In this document: positions 9,994 through 32,552 of the stretch, piece by piece
Position numbering within the stretch: position 1 is the stretch's first letter
Layout of the letters: every line of letters begins with the position of its first letter
NCBI GenBank assembly: GCA_009928985.1
Contig: SABL01000018.1
Span: 1 to 33,195, forward strand
Origin: Clostridia bacterium
GTDB lineage: Bacteria; Bacillota; Clostridia; Saccharofermentanales; UBA5734
Reading direction: 5' to 3'
Length of the DNA stretch: 33,195 nucleotides
Position numbers and translations under genes: made by a program
The notes under the pieces: generated by a model
Seen by the model: only the letters and a program-made list of their open reading frames with translations
Databases searched by the model: none
What the model was told of the DNA's origin: nothing

Positions 9994-10042
9994 ACTCGTC
10001 TAAACCATTACAGTCGTCAACATCTGCAATCCAGGCGAACAA

Positions 10043-10264
10043 TCAGAATGAAGCTTCCGGCAGATCCCTGACTTCAAAAAAGCTGTTCAGCTCAAAGAGC
10101 AGTTTCTCGACATCAAGACCGTGGACCATGCAGGCTTCTTCAATCGTTTCACCGGAAGCCATGGCACAGCCGAGGCAATGCAGGCCATTTTTGAAGAAAA
10201 TCGGCACCGTGCCCCGGTCAAGGTTCAGCACATCCGAAATGATCATATCTTTGTTAATTTCCAT
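10043..10264 (-). CDS. DUF1858 domain protein (hybrid-cluster-protein-associated redox disulfide family)
   Basis: A 73-residue cytosolic protein that is entirely a DUF1858 domain: MIISDVLNLDRGTVPIFFKN, then GLHCLGCAMASGETIEEAC and a C-terminal helix. The CLGC pair is the conserved redox or metal-binding motif. Related proteins accompany prismane/hybrid-cluster proteins and other anaerobic redox enzymes; a precise role is unknown. AGGAGG lies seven bases before the ATG. It is the last gene of a probable three-gene unit with the fumarase subunits (30-base gap), followed by the terminator at 9964-9993. Confidence 0.88.
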   Translation of the reverse strand: MEINKDMIISDVLNLDRGTVPIFFKNGLHCLGCAMASGETIEEACMVHGLDVEKLLFELNSFFEVRDLPEASF

Positions 10265-14421: not shown

Positions 14422-14661
14422 ATGCCTGTACCGCTTTCAGAGTTCAAACCCGGAGAGAGCGGGACCATTGTCTCCATCCAGGGTACCGGTGCTTTGCGCC
14501 AGCGCCTGATTGCCATGGGCGTCACCCCGGGCACCTGGCTGATTGTCAGAAAATTTGCCCCCTTGGGTGATCCCATGGAAATTCGCCTGCGCAACTATAA
14601 CCTGTCCATCAGGAAGCGCGACGCAGCCATGATTGCAATGGTGCGGGAGGACCGCCTGTGA
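14422..14661 (+). CDS. feoA: Ferrous iron transport protein FeoA
   Basis: A 79-residue SH3-like cytosolic protein. It contains LSEFKPGESGTIVSI, then LRQRLIAMGVTPGTWLIV, AP.GDPMEIRLRNYNLSIRK and a terminal A.MI.V, the full FeoA domain. FeoA assists the FeoB transporter. The ATG at 14422 has AAAGGA upstream and is preferred over in-frame starts further left. Its stop overlaps the feoB start as GTGA, giving translational coupling. The promoter with palindromic operator is at 14301-14346. Confidence 0.93.
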   Translation: MPVPLSEFKPGESGTIVSIQGTGALRQRLIAMGVTPGTWLIVRKFAPLGDPMEIRLRNYNLSIRKRDAAMIAMVREDRL

Positions 14662-16808
14662 ACATCCATCTGGCGCTGGCTGGCAACCCCAACTGTGGCA
14701 AAACAACCCTATTCAATCGTCTGACAGGCACGCGCCAGACAACGGGCAACTGGCCCGGTGTAACCGTCGAGAAAAAAGTCGGTGTGATCCGGCGCGGGCC
14801 CAATCTGTTCACCCTGGTCGATTTGCCCGGGATCTATTCCCTGTCCCCCTATTCGATCGAGGAAATTGTCACCCGCAACTACATCCTCGAAGACCAGCCG
14901 GACGTGATCGTCAATATTATCGACGCCAGCAACCTCGAGCGCAACTTGTACCTGACTTTGCAGCTGAAAAAGCTCGGCCGGCCGATGATTGTGGCTCTGA
15001 ACATGATGGACGAGATCGAGCAACGAGGCGACCTATTGCACTTGGAACGCCTTGAGGCCCTGCTCGGCATGCCAGTCGTGCCCATATCTGCCAAACTAAA
15101 CCAAGGCATCCTCGAGTTGATCGATGCGGTCAGGACCCTGGCTATTTCAATCGGACACAAGGATGGCGACCACCACCACATCCTGTCAGAGCGGCCCTTT
15201 GGCAACGAAGCGATCCCACCTGTTCCTGCGTTGGGCCACGGTCGCGAGCCAGGACCGGCCGGGCAGCCCCTTCATCATCCCATCCATCCTGCTGCCAGTC
15301 CCATCCATCCCAGGGGCAAAGGCAAACCTGCCCAGCCCTTCGGGCCCGGTCACAAGCCACATTCTCCTCATGGACCTGGACGAGGCATCGGCCACGGACA
15401 AGGACCTGGCCCCGGTCACGGGCCCGGCCAGGGAGCTGGCATCGGCCGTGCCCTGCAGGCAGAACACGACCACACCAGCGATCAACCGGAAACCATGGCC
15501 CGATTGCCGCTCGATTTTCAGCCAGAGTCCGATGAGGAAACCCAGATCCTGTACCAGGAAGCAGCCCGCATCACCCGACAGGTCCTCGAGCATCGCCTGC
15601 ACCCAGCTGACCTGACCCGTTCCGACCGGATCGACCAGGTCCTGACCCACCGCATCTGGGCGCTGCCGATCTTCCTTTTGATTTTGTTCCTGGTCTTCCA
15701 GCTCACCTTCCATGAAAACCTGGGCGGCCGCCTGACCGGCTGGCTGGACCTCTTTTTCAGTGAAACCCTGAGTGGATGGGTCCGGACCGGTCTTGGCCTT
15801 GCCGGAGCGTCGCCTTGGATCAGCTCCCTTGTGGTCGATGGCATCATCGCCGGGGTCGGCGGTGTCCTGACGTTCCTGCCCCAGATCGCCCTGCTGTTCA
15901 TGTTCCTGTCCGTGCTCGAAGACACCGGCTACATGGCCCGGGCCGCCTTCATGGTCGACAAGGTTTTCCTCAAATTCGGCCTGTCCGGACGCAGTTTCAT
16001 CCCGATGCTGATGGGGTTTGGCTGCACCGTACCAGCCATCATGGCCGCCCGTTCCCTGGAAAACCAGCGCGACCGGCGCCTGACCATCATGATCACGCCC
16101 TTCATGTCATGTGGCGCGCGCATGCCGATCTATGCCTTTTTTGCCGCCATCTTCTTCCCCACCCATAAAGGCCTGGTGACTTTCTCGATGTATGTGCTCG
16201 GCGTCATCGTCGCCATCCTCTCGGCGGTCCTCCTGAGCAAGACCGTCCTGCGCGGCAGTGAGGCTCCCTTTATCATCGAACTGCCCCCTTACCGGTTACC
16301 TGATACCAAATCCTTGTTCCTGCACATCTGGGACAAGGTCAAAGACTTCATGGTCCGAGCTGGCACCCTGATTTTTGCCATGTCGGTTGTGATCTGGATT
16401 TTCAGGACCTTCACACTGACCTTTTCCGTCGCCACGGACAGCTCACAAAGCATTTTCGGCCTTCTGGGCAGCCAGATCGCACCCTTGCTTTCGCCCCTGG
16501 GCTTCGGCAACTGGCAGTCCAGCGTAGCTCTTCTGACAGGCCTGATCGCCAAGGAAGCCGTCGTAGCCTCGCTGGGCATCCTGTTCACCCCGGAACAGAT
16601 CGCTATGACCTTCACCCCGCTCGCAGCCTATGCGTTCATGACCTTCACGTTGCTCTACACGCCCTGTGTCGCAGCGCTGGGCGCACTGGCCCGCGAAATG
16701 CAAAGCTGGCGCTGGACACTGGCAGCCATCCTCTACCAGATCGGCGTGGCCTACCTGATCTCCCTGCTGATTTTCCAGGGCGGCCTTCTGCTCGGCCTGG
16801 CTGCCTGA
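14658..16808 (+). CDS. feoB: Ferrous iron transporter FeoB with a His/Gly/Pro-rich insert
   Basis: A 716-residue Fe(II) importer. The cytosolic G domain has G1 GNPNCGKTT, G3 DLPGIYSL, G4 NMMD and G5 SAK (to about residue 150). The membrane domain begins near residue 330 and carries GFGCTVPAIMAAR and ITPFMSCGARMPIYAFF, the conserved gate motifs. Between them, residues about 166-276 contain a low-complexity insert with sixteen His plus many Gly and Pro, absent from ordinary FeoB. It could bind metal. Translation starts at GTG 14658 inside the feoA stop. A DtxR-type gene follows after 25 bases. Confidence 0.95.
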   Translation: MNIHLALAGNPNCGKTTLFNRLTGTRQTTGNWPGVTVEKKVGVIRRGPNLFTLVDLPGIYSLSPYSIEEIVTRNYILEDQPDVIVNIIDASNLERNLYLTLQLKKLGRPMIVALNMMDEIEQRGDLLHLERLEALLGMPVVPISAKLNQGILELIDAVRTLAISIGHKDGDHHHILSERPFGNEAIPPVPALGHGREPGPAGQPLHHPIHPAASPIHPRGKGKPAQPFGPGHKPHSPHGPGRGIGHGQGPGPGHGPGQGAGIGRALQAEHDHTSDQPETMARLPLDFQPESDEETQILYQEAARITRQVLEHRLHPADLTRSDRIDQVLTHRIWALPIFLLILFLVFQLTFHENLGGRLTGWLDLFFSETLSGWVRTGLGLAGASPWISSLVVDGIIAGVGGVLTFLPQIALLFMFLSVLEDTGYMARAAFMVDKVFLKFGLSGRSFIPMLMGFGCTVPAIMAARSLENQRDRRLTIMITPFMSCGARMPIYAFFAAIFFPTHKGLVTFSMYVLGVIVAILSAVLLSKTVLRGSEAPFIIELPPYRLPDTKSLFLHIWDKVKDFMVRAGTLIFAMSVVIWIFRTFTLTFSVATDSSQSIFGLLGSQIAPLLSPLGFGNWQSSVALLTGLIAKEAVVASLGILFTPEQIAMTFTPLAAYAFMTFTLLYTPCVAALGALAREMQSWRWTLAAILYQIGVAYLISLLIFQGGLLLGLAA

Positions 16809-22960: not shown

Positions 22961-22996
22961 ATAAATGCCCCAGATCAAATGATCAGGGGCATTTAT
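22961..22996 (+). promoter_or_regulatory. Hairpin spanning the ribosome site and start codon of the ABC transporter gene
   Basis: ATAAATGCCCC (22961-22971) pairs with GGGGCATTTAT (22986-22996), and an inner GATCA/TGATC stem extends it. The AGGGG ribosome site and the first two bases of the ATG at 22995 are in the right arm. It has no T-run. If the transcript starts upstream of it, translation would be masked until the stem melts. TATAAA at 22960-22965 could instead be a -10, which would remove the left arm. Confidence 0.6.
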
Positions 22997-25900
22997 GCGT
23001 ATTCAGTTAAGCAAAACCAATCCTCAGCTTATCCGTTCATTCAGCTTGCTAGTGATTGTCCTGGCAAGCACGTGTCTCTTGCTGGCAGGCTGCCAAAGCA
23101 CCGCCGGGCCGGTCGAGACAGCAGTCCCGTCCAGCACGGTCGTCACCGTGCAAGACCTGGCGCAAACTCAAGCCATCATCGCCGTGGAAAGCGGAACCAT
23201 CGCGGAAAAAGAAATGCTGGCAGCGTGGCCCCAGGCCAGATACCTGTATGTCAACAGCCCGACAGATGGTTACCTGGCGGTCCAGACGGGCAAGGCCGCG
23301 GCCTATGCCGGTGACCAGGCCATCTTTGACAGCGCCAGGCGCGCTGGATTATCTGGGCTGGCCGCTTTGCCTGAAAAGATCGGACAGGATGGTAAAGTTG
23401 CGGTCGGGATCAGCCCGGTCAGCAGCATTCCTGATTTGACCGGTCTGATCAATGCCTTCCTGGCAGAAATGGAATCGGATGGTGTTCTGGCGGATATGTA
23501 CCAGCGCTGGGTGGTCGAAGGTGACTATGCCATTCCTGAGATTCCCGAACCTGCCAATCCGGAACGCACGGTGCGCATTGGTACGACCGGACTGCTCGAG
23601 CCTTACACCTTTTACCAGGGAACCGGCCTGACCGGCTATGAAATTGAAATGATGCGTCGCTTTGCACACTGGGCCAATGTCCGTTACGAGATCCAGACCT
23701 ATGATTGGGGTGGGATCATCCCCGCCTGCGCCAGTGGCAAAGTCGACCTGATCATGAGCAACCTCTTTGACACCGACGAACGCGATGAAACGATCCTTTT
23801 CTCGGATCCATACATTCGCGTGACCACAGCCCTGATCATCCCAGATGATCCCGCAGGAACTAAGCCAGCGAATCTCCAGCCCGATTCCGACACTGGTCCA
23901 GCAACAGGACCGGCTTTGCCCACCCTGCAGGAACTGAATGGCCAGCGCTTTGCTGTTGTCACGGGTACCTTGCTGGACGACTATGCCCGGACCTATTTCC
24001 CGCAGAGTGAAATCATCTCTTTCAATCATGTCACGGACATGGTGACAGCGGTGATCAGCCAGAAAGCAGCAGCCTGCCTGCTGGATGAGCCCGTGGCGCA
24101 GTTGGTGGTGCAAAAGAATCCCGGTCTGGCGATCGTCGAGGAACTTGTCTTGGCAGACGACTATGCCTATGCCGCAGCCAAGACCGAATTCGGAGCCCAG
24201 CTGGCGACCCAGCTCAGTGACTTCATCGCCGCAAGTGACGCCAATGGCACGCTGGACGAGCTCAAAGCCATCTGGCTGGGCAGGGATGAAACGGCCAAAG
24301 TTTTAAGTGACTGGACCTTGTTACCTGAGACCAATGGCACCATTCGGTTTGTCACCGTGGCCCAAGCCGAACCTTTCAGCTACTATCGGGGATCTGAAAT
24401 GGTTGGCTATGACCTTGATCTTCTGGTTCGTTTTTGCGCGACCTATGGGTATGGCCTCGAGATCACCGACACAGCAGCAGGCACGTGGATGGCGGGACTG
24501 GCCAGCGGCAAATACGATCTGGCTGCGGCAGCAATATCCGTCACGCCTGAACGCAGCCAGGCGGTTTATTTTTCGACGCCGAATTACCACGGCGGCATCG
24601 TCGCCGTGGTCGCCACGCCGGCAGGAGAACAACCCTCAGGGCAAGGCCAGGCAAGTGGCCAGGGCAACCGTTCCGCCCGGTTCCAGAGCCTCGCCGATTT
24701 TTCCGGATCGGTCACCGGGACTCAAACCGGCACCGTTTTCGACCAGATTCTTTCTGGCCATATCCCCGGTCTGACCTTCCAATATTTTGATGACATCAGC
24801 TCCATGGTCCTGGCCCTCCAGAGCGGCCGGGTCGAAGCGATTGGTCTCGATGAACCGGTCGCCCGCCTGGTCACGGCCCAGATGGCTGATTTGACGATTT
24901 TCCCCCAGACCGTGGAAACTGACCAGTATGGTTTTGCCCTGGCTAAAGGCAGCCCGCTGACCAGTCAAATCAGTACCCTGGTCGAAGAATTTGCCGCAGA
25001 CGGCACACTGGAAGCCCTTAAGGAAAAATGGTTCGGGGCCGACGAGTCAAAGAAAACCATTCTGGTCAAGCCAGCAGAAAATCCTGTTGGAACGCTGCGC
25101 TACGCCCACGATTCGACCCTCGCTCCGATGGCCTACATCGGCAAAGCAGGTGAATCCCTGGGCTACGAAGTCGAACTGGCTGCTCTGTTTGCCCAGCGCC
25201 TTGATCTGAAGCTGGAAATCACCCAGACCAGCTTTTCGTCTCTTTTGAGCATGCTCAGCAGCAACAAGGCTGATCTGGTCTCAGGGGCGATGTCGATCAC
25301 AGATGAACGCCGCGAAAGTGTCGATTTCCCCGCCTCCCACTACACGGGTGGCATCGTCCTGGTGGTGCGCAAAGCTGATTTATCCGGAACCGAGGCAGCC
25401 GTCGCCAGCTCGAGCGAATTTGAACCAGAACAAGGATTCTGGCGCAGTACAGGACAGCAGCTTGCCAGCAGCTTCCACAAAAACTTCATCAAGGAAAACC
25501 GCTGGCAGCTGGTCTTGTCCGGAATCTGGATCACCCTGGTGATCTCGCTCCTGTCAGCCCTGGCTGGAACAATTTTTGGTTTTGGTGTCTGCCTGTTGCG
25601 CCTGAGCCAGCGCCGCCCAGTGGCTCTGATGGCCAAAGCCTTCATCCGCCTGGTCCAGGGCGTTCCGCTTGTAGTTCTGCTGATGATCCTCTATTATGTC
25701 GTCTTCGGTTCGGTCGACATCAGTGCCATCCTGGTCGCTGTCATCGGGATCGCGATCAATTTTGGCGTCTATGTCAGTGAAATGATGCGGACCGGGATCG
25801 AAGCCGTCGAAAAAGGCCAGATCGAAGCCGCCCTCGCGCTCGGCTACTCCAGGATCCAGACCTTTCGCAAGATCACCTTCCCGCAGGCAGCGCGTCATTT

Positions 25901-26174
25901 TCTACCCGTCTACAAAGGCGAATTCATTGCAATGGTCAAAATGACCTCAATCGTCGGCTACATCGCGATCCAGGACCTGACCAAAGTGACCGACATCATC
26001 CGCAGCCGGACGTATGAAGCCTTCTTCCCGCTGGTGATCACCGCGGCCATTTATTTCTTGCTCGCCTTCGTCTTGACGGCCCTGCTGGACCAGATCGAAA
26101 TCCAGGTCGATCCACGGCGCCGGTCGCGCAAGGTCAGAGGCGTGAAGCAGCAGACAAAAGGGGCAGAGTCATGA
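22995..26174 (+). CDS. Polar amino-acid ABC transporter: multi-SBP lipoprotein fused to permease
   Basis: A 1059-residue fusion related to GlnP-type importers. A lipobox LLLAGC predicts lipidation at Cys33. Then come: residues about 46-180, the second half of an SBP_bac_3 domain; about 190-430, a full SBP; about 446-692, a second full SBP; about 697-800, only the first half of an SBP. The permease (about 833-1038) follows, with the EAA loop GIEAVEKGQIEAALALGYSR. The two end halves could assemble into a third binding domain. It imports polar amino acids or similar solutes, energised by the next gene's ATPase (ATGA overlap). The ATG sits inside a hairpin. Substrate is unknown. Confidence 0.88.
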   Translation: MRIQLSKTNPQLIRSFSLLVIVLASTCLLLAGCQSTAGPVETAVPSSTVVTVQDLAQTQAIIAVESGTIAEKEMLAAWPQARYLYVNSPTDGYLAVQTGKAAAYAGDQAIFDSARRAGLSGLAALPEKIGQDGKVAVGISPVSSIPDLTGLINAFLAEMESDGVLADMYQRWVVEGDYAIPEIPEPANPERTVRIGTTGLLEPYTFYQGTGLTGYEIEMMRRFAHWANVRYEIQTYDWGGIIPACASGKVDLIMSNLFDTDERDETILFSDPYIRVTTALIIPDDPAGTKPANLQPDSDTGPATGPALPTLQELNGQRFAVVTGTLLDDYARTYFPQSEIISFNHVTDMVTAVISQKAAACLLDEPVAQLVVQKNPGLAIVEELVLADDYAYAAAKTEFGAQLATQLSDFIAASDANGTLDELKAIWLGRDETAKVLSDWTLLPETNGTIRFVTVAQAEPFSYYRGSEMVGYDLDLLVRFCATYGYGLEITDTAAGTWMAGLASGKYDLAAAAISVTPERSQAVYFSTPNYHGGIVAVVATPAGEQPSGQGQASGQGNRSARFQSLADFSGSVTGTQTGTVFDQILSGHIPGLTFQYFDDISSMVLALQSGRVEAIGLDEPVARLVTAQMADLTIFPQTVETDQYGFALAKGSPLTSQISTLVEEFAADGTLEALKEKWFGADESKKTILVKPAENPVGTLRYAHDSTLAPMAYIGKAGESLGYEVELAALFAQRLDLKLEITQTSFSSLLSMLSSNKADLVSGAMSITDERRESVDFPASHYTGGIVLVVRKADLSGTEAAVASSSEFEPEQGFWRSTGQQLASSFHKNFIKENRWQLVLSGIWITLVISLLSALAGTIFGFGVCLLRLSQRRPVALMAKAFIRLVQGVPLVVLLMILYYVVFGSVDISAILVAVIGIAINFGVYVSEMMRTGIEAVEKGQIEAALALGYSRIQTFRKITFPQAARHFLPVYKGEFIAMVKMTSIVGYIAIQDLTKVTDIIRSRTYEAFFPLVITAAIYFLLAFVLTALLDQIEIQVDPRRRSRKVRGVKQQTKGAES

Positions 26175-27324: not shown

Positions 27325-27561
27325 ATGAACGACGATTCTCAACCGAATGAAAAGGACAACCGGCTCAACGAAGATGAGCTCGATCAGGCAACGGGAGGAT
27401 TCAATCTCTATCACCCCAAGTCCGGGCTGCCAATCGTAACACCAGCCACACCAGCCTGTGCTCATTATGAAAGTAACAGTTATCTCCCTGTTAAAGTATG
27501 TTCGACCTGTGCCCATATGGGGGATATCCAGGGCATTCCAGTTTGCAAAAACCCCCTGTAG
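27325..27561 (+). CDS. Double-glycine leader, Cys-containing small peptide (putative secreted or modified peptide)
   Basis: A 78-residue peptide gene with AGGAGG seven bases before the ATG. Residues 1-25 look like a bacteriocin-type leader: acidic, with LNEDELDQATGG ending in Gly24-Gly25. The remaining 53 residues contain four Cys (45, 59, 62, 74) as CAH, CSTCAH and VCKN, which could form disulfides, thioethers or a zinc site. No peptidase-containing exporter or modifying enzyme is in the window. It follows the ABC ATPase gene by 41 bases, perhaps on the same transcript. A cytosolic zinc-ribbon protein is the alternative reading. Confidence 0.68.
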   Translation: MNDDSQPNEKDNRLNEDELDQATGGFNLYHPKSGLPIVTPATPACAHYESNSYLPVKVCSTCAHMGDIQGIPVCKNPL

Positions 27562-29650: not shown

Positions 29651-31375
29651 TTATCGGCGCGCTTTTATTTTCAGCGCCAACATGGTGATGTCATCGGCCT
29701 GCGGCGCCTCCTGGACGAAGGCATCAATGTCGATCTGGATCCGTTTCAAAAAGCCATCCAGAGCAGTAACAGCCACCTGATTAGCGAGAGTGATCAGCCG
29801 GTCATCACCATAGAGCTCATTGTCGGCATTGGTGGCTTCCGTCACCCCATCCGTGTACAAATACAGGACATCCCCCGCACCCAGCAAGATCTCGCTCTGC
29901 CGGTAGACAATGCCTTCCATGCCGGCCAACACGAAGCCGGGAATCGACTTCAGGTAAGTGAAAGCGCTGCCACCGGTCTTGAGCAATGGTGGATTGTGGC
30001 CAGCGTTGACATAGGTCAGCTTGCCGGTCGAGAGTTCCAGCAGTCCCATCCAGGCAGTGACGAACAAGTTGCCACCATTGCCCTCGCAGAGCTGTTCATT
30101 GGTCACAGTGAAAACCTCAGCCGGCGACTTGCCGCTCAGGACATTCTGTTTAATCAATGCTTTGGCAATGGCCATGAAAAGGGCTGCAGGGACACCCTTG
30201 CCGGAAACATCGGCAACAACCACGCATAAATGGTCTGCGTCTGGTTGGAAAAAGTCGTAGAAATCGCCACCGACTTCCTTGGCCGGCAACATGGAGGCCT
30301 GGATTTCATACTCATGGACAGCGGGAAATACCTGCGGCAGCATCGAGGCCTGGATCTCGCGCGCAACATTGAGTTCGGCGCTGATTCGTTCCTTCTCCCC
30401 CGTGATGGTCTTCAAATTGATCATATAGCTTTTCAGCCCGCTGGTCATGTCACTGATGCTTTCGGACAGCAGCTCGATCTCATCTTTCGTGTGAACCGGA
30501 ACCGGTTTGAACAGCAATTGCGTCGGATCATCCTGGGCACGATCGCTCTGGGCCACGAAATCCCGGGCACTGTGCGAAAGGTTGCGGATCGGACTGATCA
30601 CAAAGCGATTGAGGAAATAAATGAAGCCCAAAAGGAAAACTGCGAGAATCAGGATCGTGCCCAGCGCAACAGAAATTAGGTAGCCGCGCATCGTCTCCCG
30701 GATCTCTTCCATCGACAGATCGAGGGCCAGGATACTGACCACCTGGCTATCCGAATCAAAAACCGGCACATAGGCGGTCAGGACATAACCGTAGAGTTCC
30801 GTATCATTGGCGATGAACTGGACCGTGGCTGTTTCTGGCTGGTCTTGCATGCTCGAGGCGATCAAGCTGGCGGTCTCCAAGTCATAGTCAGCATCTGCTG
30901 CATCGCCGATCACCCCAGGTGTGTTGACCGCCGTAAAAAAGTCCGGATCCTCTGCCAGGATATCGGAACTCGTGGCACTGATGACATAGTACATGGTCTG
31001 GAAATCGGCCGGATCCGGAAAATAAACCACATAGAGCGACCGGATCTCAGAATATTCCAAAAACAGGTCCAGCGCTGCTTTCTGGTTGTAATAGGCCTCC
31101 GACATCTCCCCGGTGGCAATGCTCAGGGCCAGCTCATCCCCGTTCAGCCAGCTGAGGGCCTGGTACAGCTGGGTTTCTGCATAGACATAATAGCGCTCCA
31201 TCATACTGGTGGTATGGACGTAATAGCCATACCCACCGATGAAGGTTGCCAGCAGCAGCGCAAACAGAGTGCAAAACAGGATCAGCCGGGTCTGCAATTT
31301 CCTGCGCTTGTTGTGAGCCGATTTCACGAGTGGGCGAGTATTTTCTCCAATAGCCGGTGCCTTGCTGTCAGCCAT
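29651..31375 (-). CDS. Membrane sensor PP2C-type serine phosphatase (RsbU/SpoIIE domain)
   Basis: A 574-residue sensor phosphatase. TM1 lies at about residues 29-52, an extracytoplasmic sensor region (Cache-like by size) at about 55-230, and TM2 at about 232-255. A HAMP linker spans about 256-320. The SpoIIE/RsbU PP2C domain is at about 360-572, with metal-binding Asp motifs GGDFYDFF, VADVSGKGVPAALF, LYTDGVTEA and QADDITML. It would dephosphorylate an anti-anti-sigma-type Ser/Thr-phosphoprotein in response to an outside cue. No partner switch protein is in the window. It lacks its own good ribosome site; its start overlaps the 38-codon peptide gene by eight bases, implying coupling. Confidence 0.9.
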   Translation of the reverse strand: MADSKAPAIGENTRPLVKSAHNKRRKLQTRLILFCTLFALLLATFIGGYGYYVHTTSMMERYYVYAETQLYQALSWLNGDELALSIATGEMSEAYYNQKAALDLFLEYSEIRSLYVVYFPDPADFQTMYYVISATSSDILAEDPDFFTAVNTPGVIGDAADADYDLETASLIASSMQDQPETATVQFIANDTELYGYVLTAYVPVFDSDSQVVSILALDLSMEEIRETMRGYLISVALGTILILAVFLLGFIYFLNRFVISPIRNLSHSARDFVAQSDRAQDDPTQLLFKPVPVHTKDEIELLSESISDMTSGLKSYMINLKTITGEKERISAELNVAREIQASMLPQVFPAVHEYEIQASMLPAKEVGGDFYDFFQPDADHLCVVVADVSGKGVPAALFMAIAKALIKQNVLSGKSPAEVFTVTNEQLCEGNGGNLFVTAWMGLLELSTGKLTYVNAGHNPPLLKTGGSAFTYLKSIPGFVLAGMEGIVYRQSEILLGAGDVLYLYTDGVTEATNADNELYGDDRLITLANQVAVTALDGFLKRIQIDIDAFVQEAPQADDITMLALKIKARR

Positions 31376-31484
31376 ATCTTTCAGTCACACCGGTATCATC
31401 ATTGACAATTTCAAGCAGGCCACCATTGACATGCTCGAGCTCTTCGTCCGTCTTTTTCTCGACTGACTTTTTATCGTCGTCCAT
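31368..31484 (-). CDS. 38-residue double-glycine peptide, translationally coupled to the phosphatase gene
   Basis: A small gene read leftwards from ATG at 31484 with GGGGG eight bases upstream. The peptide begins MDDDKKSVEKKTDEELEHVN and then Gly21-Gly22, a typical bacteriocin-type leader (acidic, EL..VNGG). It ends with a 16-residue tail starting LLEIVNDD and ending TERYG. Its stop overlaps the phosphatase start by eight bases (ATG at 31375). The tail has no Cys. It may be a peptide signal whose mature form is sensed by the downstream phosphatase; this is inference. The leader resembles that of the 27325 peptide (DEL..ATGG). Confidence 0.68.
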   Translation of the reverse strand: MDDDKKSVEKKTDEELEHVNGGLLEIVNDDTGVTERYG

Positions 31485-31749
31485 CTGTCGTTCCCCCTTT
31501 TACCCCTGCAATCACCTGGCTGACTTAAGCTTGACAGTCATTTATTAAATCAAACAGGGTCTCTGTTACAATCGTGTTAACCAAGGCAAAATCCAGAGGC
31601 ATTGGATCCGTTCCAAACGATAGCGCAGCGTCCCATTTCCAGCACTGGTAACGCATGTTCATAAAAAGACCGGGGTGATTGCCTATACTGAACGCATCAT
31701 AATAACGCCGCAAAGTCTGCAGATAGCATTAGAGTCTAAGGGGAACACC

Positions 31750-32373
31750 ATGACTGAATCTAACCATCATCACGGGCATCATCACGCACACCATCATGTC
31801 CATCAGCATACGCCTGAACGGCTGGAACAGCCTGAGCGCGTCCGTGAGCTCAATCCAGCCGGAACTCTGGAGCGGTTGAATTTTAATCCGAACGAAGTCC
31901 TGTGTGATATCGGTGCCGGCAGCGGACTTTTCACCCTGGCGGCCGCCCGCATCAGCCAGCAAACGGTCTATGCAATCGATATCAACCCGCGCATGCTCGA
32001 GGCAATCGAAGCCAAAGCCGCGGCTGCGGGCATTCAAACCATCGAAACGCGCCTGGTCAGCGATGACACGCTACCAGTACCAGACCATGCCGCAGACCTG
32101 GCCCTGGTCGCCACGGTGCTCCATGAAATTCCTGACAAACCGTCCTTCATCTCCGAGATCCGCCGCCTGTTAAAACCCTCCGGCCGCCTGGCCGTCATCG
32201 AATTTCACGCAGCTGAAACACCCATGGGACCGCCGGTCAGCGAACGCCTTGGCTCGGAAGAAGTCACCGCTTTGATGATCTCGCAAGGATTTAAACCCCT
32301 CGACCAGTTCGACCTCAGTCGCAATCTCTATTGCCTGGTCTTTTCGCCCCCGGCAGCCGCTGCCAGCGTTTGA
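31750..32373 (+). CDS. Class I SAM-dependent methyltransferase with His-rich N terminus
   Basis: A 207-residue methyltransferase. The SAM-binding motif I is VLCDIGAGSGLFT, followed by AIDINPRML, then LALVATVLHEIPDKPSF and LLKPSGRLAVIEFH. The first 20 residues contain eleven His in HHH-type clusters, likely metal-binding, and then ERVRELNPAGTL, a family-typical region. It lacks the three conserved Cys of arsenite methyltransferase ArsM, so arsenic methylation is not supported. AAGGGG lies seven bases before the ATG. It ends in a strong terminator at 32401-32443. The substrate is unknown. Confidence 0.85.
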   Translation: MTESNHHHGHHHAHHHVHQHTPERLEQPERVRELNPAGTLERLNFNPNEVLCDIGAGSGLFTLAAARISQQTVYAIDINPRMLEAIEAKAAAAGIQTIETRLVSDDTLPVPDHAADLALVATVLHEIPDKPSFISEIRRLLKPSGRLAVIEFHAAETPMGPPVSERLGSEEVTALMISQGFKPLDQFDLSRNLYCLVFSPPAAAASV

Positions 32374-32480: not shown

Positions 32481-32552
32481 ATCCCTACGCAAACTGGCCT
32501 TATCGAAATACATGATTTTAATCCATTTGATAAGGCCAGTTTGCGTAGGGAT
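32481..32552. repeat. Perfect 24-bp inverted repeat with a 24-base spacer
   Basis: The left arm 32481-32504 (starting ATCCCTACGCAAACTGG) and the right arm 32529-32552 are exact reverse complements. No T-run follows, and no terminal target duplication is obvious. It could be a miniature transposable element, a recombination site or a structured RNA. It sits between a terminator and the MarR promoter. Confidence 0.85.

Follow-up and report, generated by a model that had tools for sequence, protein, structure and literature searches.

A 38-residue double-glycine peptide gene overlaps a sensor SpoIIE-type phosphatase gene in a Clostridia bacterium: a candidate precursor for export in trans

In this work, we describe a short gene, missed by the annotation, that overlaps the start of a membrane phosphatase gene in a Clostridia bacterium. 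The window, that is, the whole stretch of DNA analysed, comprises 33,195 nucleotides (contig SABL01000018.1 of assembly GCA_009928985.1). The features of main concern are listed below, G002 and G003 being the genomes of two sister species from the same genus.

31368-31484, minus strand: gene of a 38-aa peptide with a double-glycine (GG) leader, with orthologous frames in G003 and G002 (dN/dS 0.11-0.16)
31368-31375, minus strand: 8-base overlap of the peptide stop and the phosphatase start, at the same position in G003
29651-31375, minus strand: gene of a membrane sensor phosphatase of 574 aa (Pfam PF07228, 2.6e-45; HAMP weak)
31559-31581, minus strand: element of 23 bases, GTTAACACGATTGTAACAGAGAC, ahead of the peptide gene and also conserved in G002 and G003
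27325-27561, plus strand: second double-glycine peptide, 78 aa, with leader end DQATGG and a CxxC-containing tail, matching a G003 peptide (E 3.9e-6)

The peptide frame runs from ATG to TGA over 38 codons and encodes a 22-residue leader, MDDDKKSVEKKTDEELEHVNGG, which ends in VNGG (DEELEHVNGG), followed by a 16-residue tail, LLEIVNDDTGVTERYG. Both the frame and its 8-base overlap with the phosphatase, whose ATG lies at 31375, are as an earlier sequence-only reading had described them. The ribosome site proposed in that reading was found as well, as the SD-like AAAAGGGGGAA ahead of the peptide ATG and, in both G002 and G003, as a perfect AAGGAGG six bases 5' of it. The phosphatase start is preceded by weak SD-like bases. 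G003 has the overlap at the same place, with an intact phosphatase (83-84% identical) whose start codon is GTG. Such an overlap likely serves translational coupling, and the suggested co-translation with the membrane sensor phosphatase is therefore probable. Short ATG frames with a leader of the form [ED][LM]xx[VAI]xGG occurred at a rate of 0.11 per shuffled window; the real window contains two, a number reached by none of 100 shuffled windows.

Upstream of the peptide, only 59 of 100 alignment columns are identical between our genome and G003. Amid this diverged region the element at 31559-31581 is kept as GTTAACAMGATYGTAAYAGAGAC, suggesting a candidate promoter or operator. A search for a sigma-70-type promoter before the peptide-phosphatase operon found none. 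Further upstream, a 27-base inverted repeat (32481-32552; 96% complementary, 18-base loop) precedes a MarR-type gene, and G002 and G003 have versions of this repeat between their peptide and MarR genes. The gene at 31675-32373 (plus strand), whose product is methyltransferase-like and has an N-terminus rich in histidine, HHHGHHHAHHHVHQH, is absent from the corresponding place in these two genomes.

A search of 58 related genomes, four of them from other members of the genus, found the peptide frame in two of these four, G003 (MDEGKPSIEKKSDEELDKVSGGMIEIVNDQTGITEISG) and G002 (MDEGKPSIEKKSDEELDKVSGGVIEIVNDQTGLSE). The two remaining members, G001 and G004, lack both the peptide and the phosphatase genes. 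Weak matches inside large frames were discarded from this search. For the three pairs formed by our genome, G003 and G002, dS was 1.57, 1.67 and 0.40 against a dN of 0.24, 0.23 and 0.04, giving dN/dS ratios of 0.16, 0.14 and 0.11 (Nei-Gojobori), with dS near saturation in the comparisons with our genome. Most differences fall at third positions (20 of 34 between our genome and G003) and the excess of synonymous changes gave binomial p values of 0.001-0.007; a third-position bias was looked for in the other two frames of the strand and none was seen. The three species share an invariant tail core, EIVNDxTG, which is as conserved as the leader. Because selection keeps the frame, and with it the GG motif, in two sister species, we regard the peptide gene as real on this comparative evidence, as had been proposed.

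The conservation does not extend far. A profile made from the three peptides was run, with a cut-off of E 0.001, against 188 genomes of the order and matched nothing beyond the three frames of the same genus. Distant homologues of the phosphatase (32-43% identical) show no peptide frame at their start, and no GG frame overlaps the distant phosphatases of three related genomes (G033, G044 and G048) or those of 80 GTDB loci. As far as searched, the overlapping arrangement is thus confined to one genus: the prediction of a conserved frame upstream of homologous phosphatases held in G003, where frame and GG are kept, and failed among the distant homologues. In G002, moreover, the peptide is intact and the phosphatase is a pseudogene, with a stop near codon 16 and large deletions, which shows that the two genes are not strictly interdependent. 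Along the G002 branch we counted two synonymous and one non-synonymous changes in the peptide versus 13 and 16 in the phosphatase relic, numbers too small to decide whether selection on the peptide outlived the phosphatase.

The leader bears most of the marks of substrates of C39 peptidases. The C39 peptidases of exporters recognise GG together with hydrophobic residues at -4, -7, -12 and -15 (PMC7018657), and structure and mutants of LahT indicated that most substitutions at -12 leave the substrate unprocessed (PMC6363468). Our leader has Gly at -1 and -2, Val at -4, Leu at -7, Glu at -8 and Val or Ile at -15, as in C39 substrates, and the GG end and the hydrophobic residues at -4 and -7 are found in all three orthologues. 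At -12, however, all three have Lys instead of a hydrophobic residue, where fourteen other GG leaders that we compared have Leu, Ile or Val, with Leu in the other GG peptides of the genus. By sequence, the leader would follow the main C39 rules and break one of them; the fit at -1, -2, -4 and -7 favours the earlier assignment of the VNGG ending to the double-glycine type. Known double-glycine peptides of C39 ABC transporters, such as ComC and LahA (the latter cut by LahT), are alike in their short acidic leader (EL..V.GG), short tail and lack of an N-terminal hydrophobic signal, but differ from our peptide, which has Lys at -12, overlaps a phosphatase and has no exporter adjoining it or found in its genome. 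The 38-aa frame thus looks like a peptide-export precursor.

Profiles of NHLP and Nif11 leader domains, searched for in Pfam and NCBIfam up to E 10, did not match the peptide, and no maturase gene was recognised near it. The bacteriocin-leader matches that appeared in these databases were below threshold (Lactococcin 0.059, cerein 0.016) and were set aside. In comparison with NHLP and Nif11 precursors, therefore, the peptide shares the GG end only.

At least four GG peptides are encoded in our genome, two of them in the window and two on contig C191. The second peptide of the window (27325-27561) is homologous to one encoded beside an NHLM exporter in G003 (L020/L046). The leader of the 38-aa peptide, together with the following IEIV, is similar to the beginning of a longer GG peptide on C191, EKLSDDALDTVAGGFFGIEIVD. 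The two C191 peptides (L076; 9680-9979 and about 10013-10240) are arranged in tandem; one is Cys-rich with a G003 orthologue (L077), and the other has two CxxC pairs and is zinc-ribbon-like.

The phosphatase starts with a transmembrane segment (about residues 27-52), followed by a PAS/Cache-like sensor (about 53-228), a second transmembrane segment (about 229-258), a HAMP domain and a SpoIIE/PP2C domain (380-570). The catalytic motifs GGDFYD, DVSGKG, TDG and DD are invariant in 25 homologues, as expected for a SpoIIE/PP2C catalytic domain. An AlphaFold model of the full-length protein (pTM 0.45) placed two transmembrane helices around the sensor, with HAMP and PP2C behind them, and Foldseek comparisons with Rv1364c, RssB and SiaA confirmed the PP2C fold. 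Modelled alone (pLDDT 81), the sensor gave weak matches to the PAS/Cache-like domains of CitA, Tlp3 and KinD (TM about 0.4), and dCache_1 was matched in 2 of 25 relatives of the phosphatase, so the sensor looks PAS/Cache-like in its predicted structure. Domains of this type usually bind small molecules. Sensor identity between our genome and G003 is 86%, at least as high as that of the catalytic domain.

With the partner-switch phosphatases SpoIIE, RsbU and SiaA the protein shares the SpoIIE catalytic residues, HAMP and a membrane sensor (the NCBIfam match to SiaA, at 1.9e-25, is below cut-off). It differs from them in having an overlapping peptide gene on its 5' side and no STAS antagonist or kinase adjoining it or identified in the genome. 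In our draft genome we found no stand-alone STAS antagonist, the sole PF01740/PF13466 match lying in a 552-aa frame on C167 that is probably a transporter, and no dedicated anti-sigma kinase. The only stand-alone small kinase of the HATPase_c_2 type (PF13581) belongs to a hydrogenase operon, with a ferredoxin-hydrogenase-like gene next to it, and occurs in all five members of the genus, including those devoid of the phosphatase. A partner-switch pathway fed by this phosphatase, as proposed earlier, would thus lack its usual partners in this draft.

Nor did we find the expected exporter in our genome, a draft of 433 contigs that is 96.9% complete: neither PF03412 nor a query with the G003 exporter detected a C39 exporter there. 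No C39/NHLM exporter was found in the draft assembly of G002 either; both drafts are 95-97% complete, and the exporter may be unassembled or absent. In G003, by contrast, the exporter sought by the sequence-only reading is present as an NHLM ABC1 protein with a C39 domain (TIGR03796, 935.9 bits, cut-off 853.3) and an NHLM ABC2 protein (TIGR03797, 734.5 bits, cut-off 709.4), accompanied by three GG peptides and a short HlyD-like protein (below cut-off). With these, G003 resembles the NHLM/NHLP and Nif11 clusters of Clostridia (TIGR03794, TIGR03796 and TIGR03797), which in related genomes also include sensor-SpoIIE phosphatases. Beside the exporter, on G003 contig C216 (L046, 8838-18544), lie the genes of a 1027-aa MFS/HEAT/cyclic-nucleotide-binding protein and a 1955-aa kinase-AAA-GAF-histidine-kinase-receiver protein, followed by that of a SpoIIE phosphatase.

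Six full-length C39-ABC exporters were found in the 58 related genomes, four of which (one in G033, two in G044 and one in G048) have a full-length phosphatase homologue no more than 10 kb away. This proximity is far above chance by a rough estimate that assumes a 2.5-Mb genome to have one or two such phosphatases and has no matched control. A fifth exporter, that of G003, shares a 20-kb contig with a SpoIIE paralogue. Among 80 phosphatase loci in GTDB, the flanks held an NHLM C39 exporter in 8, a STAS gene in 42 and a HATPase kinase in 52, all lower bounds owing to the many incomplete flanks; of the eight loci with an exporter, five also contain GG peptides. NHLM exporters repeatedly have a sensor-SpoIIE phosphatase as neighbour, although most SpoIIE loci are without an exporter. 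This recurring neighbourhood in Clostridia points to a class of exported peptides that may be under the control of partner switching. A literature search that paired SpoIIE with NHLP or C39, or double-glycine peptides with partner switching, returned nothing relevant describing such a link. In a Lachnospiraceae locus (L111, 19549-20095), an NHLM exporter is accompanied by GG peptides with two tandem leader-like GG motifs and very short tails.

We favour, with a probability of roughly 0.5, the reading that the peptide is a precursor of the double-glycine (C39/NHLM) type, exported in trans, and that the phosphatase controls the same programme. An operon of two genes would begin with that of the peptide and end with that of the sensor SpoIIE-type phosphatase, the latter protein being translated by coupling from the peptide and made in proportion to it. 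The leader would direct the peptide to an NHLM-type C39 exporter encoded elsewhere, since the genome has its GG peptides in scattered places and an exporter of this kind is present in G003. Cleavage after GG would then release a tail of 13-16 residues. The phosphatase, finally, would control this export and peptide programme, as the sensor phosphatases in the NHLM clusters of related Clostridia probably do in theirs.

A direct relation of ligand and receptor, as modelled by the sequence-only reading, in which the exported 16-residue tail binds the sensor, switches the PP2C domain and feeds a partner-switch pathway, seems to us rather unlikely. It would agree with the overlap of the genes, repeated in G003, with a tail core as conserved as the leader and with a sensor that has not diverged faster than the catalytic domain. 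The resemblance of the sensor, in weak matches, to the small-ligand domains of CitA, Tlp3 and KinD speaks against it, and so do the failure to find exporter or partner-switch partners in our genome, the retention of the peptide in G002 with a dead phosphatase and the lack of the peptide from distant homologues of the same architecture. Its most compact version, a minimal signalling unit made up of an exported double-glycine peptide as ligand and the co-translated SpoIIE-type sensor phosphatase as its receptor, is a shade more doubtful still. Peptide signalling through the phosphatase is nonetheless possible. If the phosphatase answers to the peptide, the signal would travel by protein dephosphorylation and not by the usual kinases or cytoplasmic receptors; if the tail is the ligand itself, a peptide pheromone would be read by a PP2C phosphatase instead of a histidine kinase or an RRNPP regulator.

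It is also unlikely, to nearly the same degree as the ligand-receptor relation, that the frame is a leader frame or encodes a small cytoplasmic protein. In that case the peptide would stay inside the cell and would set the translation level of the phosphatase or attach to its cytoplasmic part, with a GG inherited from an export-type ancestor. The overlap with weak SD-like bases ahead of the phosphatase would suit such a role, as would Lys at -12, which counts against C39 recognition, and the failure to find an exporter in two of the three peptide-bearing genomes. Mere coupling, however, needs none of the GG, Val -4 and Leu -7 that have survived near-saturated synonymous divergence, and the G002 peptide remained intact after its phosphatase was lost. 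That the peptide is a remnant of an export cluster, a truncated GG precursor drifting to decay after loss of its exporter, is very improbable given the low dN/dS and intact frames in three species, the strong SD retained in two of them and the other GG peptides, which are intact too (one conserved between our genome and G003), even though no exporter was found in our genome or in G002, the G002 phosphatase is broken and the peptide is similar to the beginning of a larger GG peptide.

Elsewhere in the window, the gene at 22995-26174 (plus strand) encodes a 1059-aa fusion of several solute-binding-like domains with an amino-acid-type ABC permease, and that at 14658-16808 (plus strand) a FeoB-like protein with a long Gly/Pro/His-rich insertion.
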